Part shown: positions 23,101-25,674 of the stretch, piece after piece
Layout: the number at the start of each line of letters is the position of its first letter
How positions within the stretch are numbered: the first letter of the stretch is position 1
Assembly: GCF_008329965.1 (NCBI RefSeq)
Contig: NZ_CP036150.1
Coordinates: forward strand, 2,604,001-2,668,000
Direction: 5' to 3'
DNA: 64,000 nt
Origin: Oceanispirochaeta crateris
GTDB taxonomy: Bacteria > Spirochaetota > Spirochaetia > DSM-2461
Translations under genes and position numbers: made by a program
The notes under the pieces: generated by a model
Seen by the model: the letters and a program-made list of their open reading frames with translations, nothing else
Told to the model about the DNA's origin: nothing
Databases searched by the model: none

Positions 23101-23139
23101 AAAAAAAGCCCCTGAAGAAAAGGAGGAAACTTCAGGGGC
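23101..23139 (-). terminator. Intrinsic terminator of the small RNA / efflux operon
   Basis: A perfect 10-bp stem pairs 23108-23117 (GCCCCTGAAG) with 23130-23139 (CTTCAGGGGC). On the minus strand it is followed by seven Ts (complement of 23101-23107). The loop on that strand reads TTTCCTCCTTTT. It could also end readthrough from the efflux operon upstream. Confidence 0.85.
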
Positions 23140-23273
23140 CAAAAAGCAAAAAGGAAAAAAAGGTAATCAATCTCTTCTTCCAGAGAACCCGGTTAACAAC
23201 CGAACTCCCATAAGAACTCTTCAGTGAAGAAAAGGAGGAAAACTCCAGCTGAAGATCGTTACTTATTAATTCA
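23101..23273 (-). ncRNA. Candidate small regulatory RNA with two anti-Shine-Dalgarno (CCUCC) loops
   Basis: A 486-base gap (22960-23445) without a credible gene holds a full small-RNA transcription unit on the minus strand. A promoter (23280-23308) predicts a start near 23273, and an intrinsic terminator ends it at 23101-23139, giving about 170 nt. The transcript contains the 17-nt string TTTCCTCCTTTTCTTCA twice (complements of 23113-23129 and 23225-23241). One copy is the terminator loop and the other lies in a hairpin closed by CTTCAG/CTGAAG (23219-23224 and 23249-23254). A third small hairpin is at 23190-23202. The C-rich loops are complementary to AAGGAGG ribosome sites and resemble the 16S 3' tail. 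No frame longer than 14 codons with a usable start was seen. Confidence 0.6.
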
Positions 23274-23279
23274 CTTGTA

Positions 23280-23308
23280 AATATAATAATCTCGTCTTTT
23301 AAAGTCAA
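23280..23308 (-). promoter_or_regulatory. Sigma-70-type promoter of the candidate small RNA
   Basis: Read on the minus strand: TTGACT (complement of 23303-23308), 17 bases, TATATT (complement of 23280-23285). These match consensus at five and four of six positions with ideal spacing. It points away from the kinase gene end into the small-RNA region. Confidence 0.7.
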
Positions 23309-23445
23309 GACAACGTCTGAACTTTGTTTCTATAAAGCATTACATCACTGTGAATATACTGATATAGTAAAATTCAATTGTCAGGATTATGTGTGTTTTA
23401 TATCAGGATTCTATTGGGATACTTCTGAGATAGAGTGAAGGTCCT

Positions 23446-24918
23446 TTAAGAGGACTCTTTTAAGATCTTAGGAAAGCGGATTTGAAACAAGGCTCCGCCA
23501 GTCTTTCCCTCAACAACTCGAATCTGTCCACCCTGATTCTCAACTAAAATTTTACTGATAGATAATCCAAGTCCGCTGCCTCCACTACTGCGAGAGGCAT
23601 CCATCTTGAAAAAACGGTCAAAAACTCTCTCTCTCAGGTCTGGCGGAATCCCCGCTCCCGTGTCTTCCACTTCTAAAAGGACCTGAGTTCCCTCCCCCTT
23701 ACAGCGCAATGTAATACCGCCTCCTTCCGGAGTATGCCTGATGGCATTCACGAGCAGATTTTTCAATATTTGTCCCGTTCTATTCCTGTCGCCCATAAAA
23801 GAACAGTCCTCCTCCAAATCTTCCAGGAGAGTGATTTTCTCTTTCTCTGCGAGGGCACGGAAATCTTCTAGGCTTTGATGCAGGATTTTGGGAAGAGAGA
23901 GGATTTCCCGATCCATTCGATTCTGACCGGACTCCTCACTCGACAGGGTTTGAAGGTTTTTGATCAAACCAGCGAGGTTAACACTTTCCCTGTAGAGAGA
24001 TTCCAGGCGCGAACGATCTGCTTGATAGACTCCGTCCAGGATCATTTCCAAATTGCCCATGATCAAACTGACAGGAGTTCTCAACTCATGAGCCGTATCG
24101 GTTATGATCTGCTTTTTCCATTCCTGAGAGGCTTCCAGTGTTGAGGCCATCTCATTGAATCCTTCTGAAAGGCGTGTCAAGTCATCATCTGAGTTCAAAA
24201 ATGTTTTTCGAGGCAATTGAACCCGGTAGGCGTAATCTCCCTTCCCGATGGTTACCACACCCTTGTAAAGACTCTTCAAGGGTTTTAAGGCCTTCCCCAG
24301 CATCAGGGCTCCCAGCAAGGAAGCCATCAGTGCGGCAAAAGTGGGATAGATGAGAATGCCTCTGAAAATTGAATGATAATAGGAGAATTCTCCCCTCTCA
24401 ACATCGACTCCGACCTGTCGTCCCGTCAAAACATATCCCGCCAGGACTCCCTGTAAATAAAAAGGTGCTCCTTGAGTAAAACTGTCGGGATGCAAGGTCG
24501 TTCCCAAGACTCCAAAATAATCATGGCTCTGCCCCTGAATGACCTTTCCATTCCTATCAACGATGAGAAGAGGAATGACTTCATCTCCTGTGGAGATCAT
24601 AAGGGAGGGCATTCTTTTCAGAGCTGTTGCGGGGGATTTTTCGGAAGGACGGCTCCCCATCATGGGACCCATCATCTGCCGTCCCGTCCGTGTTTTCGGA
24701 CTTCCCAGGGAATGAAGGACCATTTCAAGTTGCTCTTCGCTCTCCACACTGCTCAGGGCTTCTGCCAGAGTCAAGGCAATATCCCTGTCTCTCTGATGGG
24801 AATATCCCATGAAGGTCTTCATGGTGAAGGAACTCACAAGAAGGATGGAGATGAAGGCACTGAGGAGGATTGAGAAAACCATGATGCTGATCAATCGGGT
24901 GCTGAGGGATATTTTCAC
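23446..24918 (-). CDS. Membrane sensor histidine kinase (HAMP-HisKA-HATPase)
   Basis: A 490-residue sensor of the BaeS/CpxA layout. A transmembrane helix lies at about 9-33. A periplasmic sensor region to about 180 is unusually rich in Met, Gly and Pro around residue 80 (TGRQMMGPMMGSRP). A second helix (FAALMASLLGALMLGKAL) and HAMP follow, then HisKA with ITDTAHELRTPVSLIMGN and an HATPase with NAIRHTPEGG, DTGAGIP and GGSGLGLSI. The Met-rich stretch could contact metal, which is an inference. Its start overlaps the stop of the response regulator (ATGA), so they form a pair that probably controls the RND efflux genes upstream in the same run. Confidence 0.92.
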   Translation of the reverse strand: MKISLSTRLISIMVFSILLSAFISILLVSSFTMKTFMGYSHQRDRDIALTLAEALSSVESEEQLEMVLHSLGSPKTRTGRQMMGPMMGSRPSEKSPATALKRMPSLMISTGDEVIPLLIVDRNGKVIQGQSHDYFGVLGTTLHPDSFTQGAPFYLQGVLAGYVLTGRQVGVDVERGEFSYYHSIFRGILIYPTFAALMASLLGALMLGKALKPLKSLYKGVVTIGKGDYAYRVQLPRKTFLNSDDDLTRLSEGFNEMASTLEASQEWKKQIITDTAHELRTPVSLIMGNLEMILDGVYQADRSRLESLYRESVNLAGLIKNLQTLSSEESGQNRMDREILSLPKILHQSLEDFRALAEKEKITLLEDLEEDCSFMGDRNRTGQILKNLLVNAIRHTPEGGGITLRCKGEGTQVLLEVEDTGAGIPPDLRERVFDRFFKMDASRSSGGSGLGLSISKILVENQGGQIRVVEGKTGGALFQIRFPKILKESS

Positions 24919-25616
24919 TTTGAATCCTGCATTTTATACCCGACACCCCAAACTGTGAGGATGTATTCCGGATGAGCCGGGTCCTCTTCTATAAGCTTCC
25001 GGATATTCTTAATATGCACATCAATGGACCGTTCATATCCCTCATAGGGATCTTCCTGAAAGGCCTGTAGCAGATCCATTCTTGTAAAGACGCGCCCCGG
25101 GGAGCTCACCATTTTTTCCAGAATATCAAATTGAGCGGCCGTCAGATCCACGGCTTTCCCACGGATAGACACGGACCTTTTAATCCTGTCCATGACGAGA
25201 TCGGCCTGTACCAATATTTGATTATCGGCCTCCTTGGCCTCAGGTCCTGCCTGAGGATGACTTCGGCGGAGAACCGTACGAATCCGGGCAGCCAGCTCTT
25301 TCATGCTGAAGGGTTTAGCAATGTAGTCATCCGCTCCCAATTCCAGCCCCAGAACCGTATCCCCTTCATCCGTACGGGCTGTGACCATCAAGATGGGTAG
25401 ATTGGAATCTTTCCTGATCTCTCTGAGAACTTCTGTTCCATCCAAGCGGGGCATCATGATGTCCAAAAGGACAAGATCCAGCTCTCTAGTCCTATATATT
25501 TTAAGAGCCTCAATGCCGTCAAAGGCGGATATGGCCTCAAACCCAAGAGCCCTTAGATAATCGCAGATCATTTCATTGATGCCTGCTTCGTCTTCTGCTA
25601 CGAGTATTGTTTTCAT
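24915..25616 (-). CDS. OmpR-family response regulator
   Basis: The N-terminal receiver has KTILVAEDEAGINE, phospho-Asp in LVLLDIMMPRLDG, and K in YIAKPFSM. A C-terminal winged helix has the OmpR/PhoB features LTAAQFDILEKMVSSPGRVFTR and the recognition region YERSIDVHIKNIRKLIEEDP. It binds DNA as a phosphorylated dimer to regulate promoters. I chose the ATG at 25616, which starts directly at the receiver; an upstream in-frame ATG at 25649 adds eleven unrelated residues. It lies 58 bases after the RND pump gene and is coupled to the kinase gene, so the system likely controls its own efflux operon. Confidence 0.93.
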   Translation of the reverse strand: MKTILVAEDEAGINEMICDYLRALGFEAISAFDGIEALKIYRTRELDLVLLDIMMPRLDGTEVLREIRKDSNLPILMVTARTDEGDTVLGLELGADDYIAKPFSMKELAARIRTVLRRSHPQAGPEAKEADNQILVQADLVMDRIKRSVSIRGKAVDLTAAQFDILEKMVSSPGRVFTRMDLLQAFQEDPYEGYERSIDVHIKNIRKLIEEDPAHPEYILTVWGVGYKMQDSK

Positions 25617-25674
25617 ATTGTCATTAGTATACAACCAAGCTGTGAACAAAGTATGAAGGATCTATAAATCTTAA

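Follow-up and report, generated by a model that had tools for sequence, protein, structure and literature searches.

A conserved candidate small RNA with two 16S-tail-like loops in Oceanispirochaeta crateris and its relation to CCUCC-loop terminators of Spirochaetia

The locus and its neighbouring genes

The window, namely the whole stretch of 64,000 nucleotides analysed here, carries on its minus strand a predicted small RNA gene that follows a two-component pair (Table 1). The sequence-only reading had described a promoter TTGACT-17-TATATT, which is present as described (23308-23280), and a perfect 10-bp terminator hairpin with Ts; hairpin and Ts are found as GGCCCCTGAAG-TTTCCTCCTTTT-CTTCAGGGGCT followed by the T run ending at 23101, and only the stem length is slightly different, as folding gives 10-11 pairs. 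The 17-mer TTTCCTCCTTTTCTTCA, reported to occur both in the terminator loop and in a second hairpin, has exact copies at 23129-23113 and 23241-23225, which are its only occurrences in the 4.0-Mb genome; in 1000 rounds of dinucleotide shuffling, the region never yielded an exact direct repeat of more than 13 nt, versus the 17 nt observed. The RNA is predicted to form four hairpins (fold z = -4.4), two of which display the same loop UUUCCUCCUUUUCUUC. Thus, of the two-hairpin picture proposed earlier both loops stand, while the first hairpin is longer and imperfect (23254-23219) and two more conserved hairpins lie between the loops. The 16S tail of the host genome reads GGATCACCTCCTTTCTACG, so that the loops have CCUCCUUU in common with it, in agreement with the resemblance to the 16S end already suggested for this motif.

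Table 1. Features of the small RNA locus and of the adjoining two-component genes
Feature	Position	Strand	Remarks
OmpR-type response regulator	24915..25649	-	Pfam Response_reg, Trans_reg_C; likely start ATG near 25616
Direct repeat TTCAYACTTTGTTCACAG / TTCATACTTTGTTCACAG upstream of response-regulator gene	25657-25640	-	similar form in six genomes
Histidine kinase, directly upstream of small RNA	23446..24918	-	Pfam HATPase_c, HisKA; same place in six genomes
Conserved region upstream of promoter	23309..23428	-	genus alignment; repeats like CACACATAATCCTGACA (23395-23379)
Sigma-70-type promoter TTGACT-17-TATATT	23280..23308	-	kept in six genus members
-35 box TTGACT	23308-23303	-	spacer 17 nt
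-10 box TATATT	23285-23280	-	spacer 17 nt
Predicted small RNA, ~173 nt	23101..23273	-	5' end inferred from -10 box; 3' end = terminator
Hairpin 1, loop UUUUCCUCCUUUU	23219..23254	-	consensus fold; compensatory changes in G005, loop retained
Hairpin 2, apex GUUGUUAAC	23183..23209	-	consensus fold; holds most pairs changed on both sides
Hairpin 3, stem GGAAGAAGAGA/UUUUUUUCC, conserved loop UUGAUUACC	23153..23181	-	sequence nearly invariant
Intrinsic terminator + U tract	23101..23140	-	loop UUUCCUCCUUUU 23129-23118, identical in 6/6 genomes

Two other ways of reading these hairpins were considered. On the plus strand the hairpin loops become AAAAGGAGGAAA and could bind CsrA, whose signature is indeed GGA in hairpin loops, or serve as Shine-Dalgarno sites; however, U tract and promoter are found on the minus strand only and no frame follows on the plus strand, so that this alternative is very improbable. 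Conversely, on the minus strand a 58-codon frame starting with TTG (23308-23132) is open in the host genome and might be translated to a small protein, but it begins on the -35 box, and in the relatives it runs into a stop, within the first 11 codons in four and at codon 37 in the other one. The frame, interrupted in the alignment in all five relatives, was rejected, and its translation has almost no probability left; the same alignment revealed no reading frame surviving across all six genus genomes. Own promoter, own terminator and lack of a conserved frame, the features by which a base-pairing small RNA is judged, are all found in the window RNA.

The order response regulator, histidine kinase, small RNA and converging DUF445 gene is kept in six of six genomes of the genus. 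RND efflux genes, to which the sequence-only reading had tied the RNA, adjoin the locus in five of them and are missing from one, where the two-component pair and the RNA stay; the adjacency therefore stands for most genomes and the link to the pump is weak, the constant partner of the small RNA being the two-component pair and not the pump. The direct repeat that precedes the response-regulator gene is a probable autoregulation box. A regulator site might also be represented, with less confidence, by the CTTCACAnAATCTTGACA-like repeats upstream of the RNA promoter, and a binding site common to these repeats and to that of the response regulator is a faint possibility.

Conservation, paralogues and the wider group in Spirochaetia

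When 60 related genomes were searched at the DNA level, the small RNA stretch was recovered in all five other genus members (73-84% identity); as a whole, the full-length stretch is absent outside the genus among these genomes. Relatives of the host are named Spirochaeta sp. UBA5339 and Spirochaetaceae bacterium 4572_59. The same distribution was obtained with a covariance model of the window RNA (R1), which matches the genus only (E 1e-40 to 1e-52), the next matches being paralogues; the earlier suggestion to look for the RNA in related spirochaetes by covariance thus gave a positive result. The promoter is present in six of six genomes as TTGACTT and ATTAYTATATT with a spacer of 17 nt. The loop of hairpin 1 is identical in five genomes and reads CCCUCC in the sixth, and in all six orthologues the CCUCC of both loops has an unpaired probability of 0.61-1.00. 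Double changes affect 11 of the 43 consensus pairs in the six-genome alignment; in G005, the most distant genome, hand alignment shows four pairs of hairpin 1 exchanged for different standard pairs, with the loop retained. Covariation is modest with six sequences, yet consistent with the wider terminator set described below. The six genomes show the reverse of a retained frame with lost CCTCC loops, a pattern that would have spoken against an RNA gene. The conserved sequence, the covariation, the lack of a coding frame and the existence of paralogues all agree with the claim of a small RNA gene with accessible anti-Shine-Dalgarno loops, and strongly support the assignment of the locus, from its sequence, as the gene of a conserved and previously undescribed small RNA. 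Indeed, no report of such RNAs in spirochaetes was found in a literature search that was thin on subscription journals, and Rfam gave nothing at gathering level for the scanned paralogues and relatives, with all weak window matches below the cut-off.

The host genome contains a second CCUCC-loop RNA, named paralogue B (G000:C1, 143.5 kb), whose terminator is GCCCCCGGG-UUUCCUCCUUUU-CCCGGGGGC and which is found in every genus member. Its promoter reads GTAACY-N16-GTTT in all eight copies read and is present in all six genus genomes. A similar element, TGTAAC-N17-GTTT, precedes an ECF sigma gene of the host genome (G000:C1 1853546-1854058, minus; locus L086, 1853546-1854105); the next gene codes for a zf-HC2 protein, a usual anti-sigma type. 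Promoters of this form immediately precede the orthologous sigma gene in five of the six genus members, the sixth being cut by a contig end, and the sigma gene of most other family genomes. Since paralogue B and the ECF sigma gene have the same promoter type, paralogue B very probably belongs to that ECF regulon. Conversely, the window RNA lies behind a sigma-70-type promoter instead of GTAACN-N16-GTT, thus it is not in the ECF regulon; the envelope-stress role initially imagined for it can be approached only indirectly, through the paralogues with the ECF-type promoter. A third CCUCC-loop RNA of the genus (in the host genome at 2883.7 kb; G000:C1:2883709-2883746, minus; loci L177, L180) lies beside a bcp-type peroxiredoxin gene and may be linked to oxidative stress.

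A covariance model of the terminator (R2) was run on 297 genomes of the class and gave matches in 177, a number that counts neither CCUCC loops nor their prevalence, since a control model with the loop changed to TTCCTTTCCTTT matched 129 of the 297 genomes, mostly at the same places. Scores of the control were clearly lower, in line with real loops carrying CCUCC. Single reading yielded 78 distinct CCUCC-loop terminators, 77 from 57 spirochaete genomes of 28 families and one from Lentisphaeria; they were picked by that loop, so their number says nothing on the share of CCUCC among all terminators. The loop reads ACCUCC in 39 of the 78, in several families as ACCUCCUUUU, and a second CCUCC lies within 70 nt upstream in 36. 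A stricter pattern with two ACCTCCTT copies before the terminator was dropped as a count, its fixed spacing being too narrow: it matched 8 genomes, in two of which the match is not a terminator. The motif GTAACN-N15..17-GTT is found within 180 nt upstream of 38 of the 78 terminators, compared with 0.74 expected from base-composition shuffles; the places had been selected for the loop and not for the promoter, and the 38 loci come from 35 genomes and 19 families, related loci not being independent. The spacer is 16 in 35 of these 38 promoters, which mostly lie 75-95 nt before the stem. Gene anatomy, conservation, constant loops on changing stems, non-coding character and the wider group with its promoter association are features of the sequences themselves.

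The largest set of CCUCC-loop terminators is located between pfk and a converging pgi gene, both names being assigned from sequence and not by family search. In eleven loci of many Spirochaetia families (L138, L140, L143, L145, L149, L155, L163, L166, L168, L170 and L194) an RNA with two ACCUCCUUUU-type motifs lies downstream of pfk, mostly facing the converging pgi and mostly behind a GTAACN-N16-GTT promoter, at a glycolysis-linked locus. Four other terminators (L176, L187, L190 and L199) are found just upstream of a leuS-like gene, three of them preceded by a second CCUCC hairpin; these elements are candidates for a small RNA or an attenuator-like leader. In L188 and L189, ACCUCCAGUCCCCCC and then a CCUCC-loop terminator stand upstream of a gene for an RRM-like RNA-binding protein. 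The same architecture occurs in another phylum, in Lentisphaeria UBA2565 (L070), with tandem hairpins bearing loops UUUUCCUCCUCCUUUUU and UUUCCUCCUUUU. In rumen proteobacteria MAGs (L068 and L075), the CCUCC-loop terminator directly follows an apparent coding gene, possibly as part of a 3'-UTR-derived RNA.

The abundance of such loops among the terminators of the class, some right behind or before genes, could mean that the window element is an ordinary terminator or spacer after the histidine-kinase gene, its CCUCC loop being a habit of terminators with no regulatory role. However, a conserved promoter separates the kinase gene from the terminator, a second, non-terminator hairpin with the same loop is also conserved, and an upstream promoter of their own is found in half of the cases across the class; a purely terminating function is thus quite unlikely.

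Targets and proposed mechanism

Since the loops copy the 16S tail, the RNA probably blocks ribosome binding sites of mRNAs. The reading that we favour, and consider likely, is that of a stand-alone, Hfq-independent RNA of about 173 nt in which both 16S-tail-like loops would pair with strong Shine-Dalgarno sites. Two hairpins would hold CCUCCUUUU in open loops; these would pair, in a set of mRNAs, with strong Shine-Dalgarno sequences (AAAAGGAGG), so that ribosome binding would be blocked and translation repressed. The promoter is of housekeeping type, and the adjoining two-component pair may control the RNA, which would be part of the wider spirochaete group with CCUCC terminator loops, about half of them behind an ECF-sigma-type promoter. 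Transcription, target pairing, repression and two-component control are all inferred here from the sequence; repression by pairing with ribosome binding sites, already proposed in the sequence-only reading, appears plausible and is the best explanation of the loops.

In a simple duplex model, pairing of the loop with GAAAAGGAGGAAAA is worth about -20 kcal/mol. A crude count gives GGAGG-like sites at only ~6-9 of the 47 window genes, thus the pairing could be selective; Shine-Dalgarno sequences are weak at the genes adjoining the small RNA. The scan of start regions for extended complementarity, also suggested previously, did not deliver a target: the perfect arrangement AAAGGAGGAAA-N0..9-ATG has four occurrences in the host genome, and in the perfect-complement scan of the genus no site with AAAGGAGGAAA before ATG is common to the genomes. 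Hfq was not found in the six genus genomes, with positive controls, so that strong pairing of loop and target without that chaperone is expected.

The same features could be explained by titration of a protein: the paired CCUCC/UC-rich loops would act as a sponge for an RNA-binding protein, such as an RRM or cold-shock protein, instead of pairing with mRNA. A pair of identical loops is a typical trait of RNAs that titrate proteins, Hfq is not found in the genus and CCUCC-loop terminators precede an RRM-protein gene in two genomes. Conversely, what is conserved is the 16S-tail sequence itself, present as ACCUCCUUUU in several families and with ACCUCC in 39 of 78 loops, which a protein site would not predict; we therefore regard the sponge as improbable. 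A broader form of the antisense reading may be advanced tentatively, with the odds rather against it: class-wide 16S-tail-mimic RNAs under ECF sigma control, in this genus also beside a two-component system, might compete with the tail of the ribosome and damp all mRNAs with a strong Shine-Dalgarno sequence, without Hfq.

Comparison with known RNAs

The closest design is that of the alphaproteobacterial alpha-r14 or 'cuckoo' RNAs (SmelA075/SmelA099, NfeR1 and Rhodobacter CcsR1-4), which consist of several hairpins, each with the anti-Shine-Dalgarno loop CCUCCUCCC (PMC3927594, PMC10746234, PMC10253847). Their loops are constant and their stems variable, several copies are found per genome, and in Rhodobacter a stress sigma promoter is used (PMC3927594, PMC10746234, PMC10253847). 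Similarly, the spirochaete RNA repeats hairpin modules with constant anti-Shine-Dalgarno loops on variable stems. However, the window loops are UUUCCUCCUUUU/CCUCCUUUU and not CCUCCUCCC, the terminator itself bears a loop copy, no DUF1127 partner gene adjoins the window RNA, phylum and loci are different, no Hfq was found in the host genus and no Rfam covariance match reached the gathering score. Thus, the spirochaete RNAs are analogous in design to the cuckoo RNAs but do not belong to their family.

The best weak Rfam similarity of the window region is Listeria LhrC (RF00616), which also has two C-rich loops, including that of the terminator. LhrC loops are of UCCC type, and the score of 24.4 bits (E 0.23) falls far short of the 110-bit gathering score, which rules out membership. 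In Staphylococcus aureus, RNAIII and similar C-rich-loop RNAs block ribosome binding sites by partial anti-Shine-Dalgarno loops (RNAIII is cited in PMC3927594); the window RNA has no relation to these RNAs in sequence or locus.

Fusobacterium FoxI and FoxJ are sigmaE-dependent RNAs with a cytosine-stretch seed, placed in a loop in FoxJ, in a host without Hfq or ProQ (PMC11005410). The spirochaete paralogues are likewise ECF-linked and the genus has no Hfq that could be found, while paired CCUCC loops are not described for the Fox RNAs in the text consulted (PMC11005410). Unlike these RNAs, the window RNA is preceded by a sigma-70-type promoter, the ECF-type being found only at its paralogues.

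To our knowledge, small-RNA regulation in spirochaetes is little charted except in Borrelia. Found on unrelated stems in 28 families, and in half of the cases behind one type of ECF promoter, the 16S-tail loop would provide Spirochaetia with a shared noncoding branch of the stress response, similar to MicA/RybB, CcsR or FoxI/J though apparently of separate origin.
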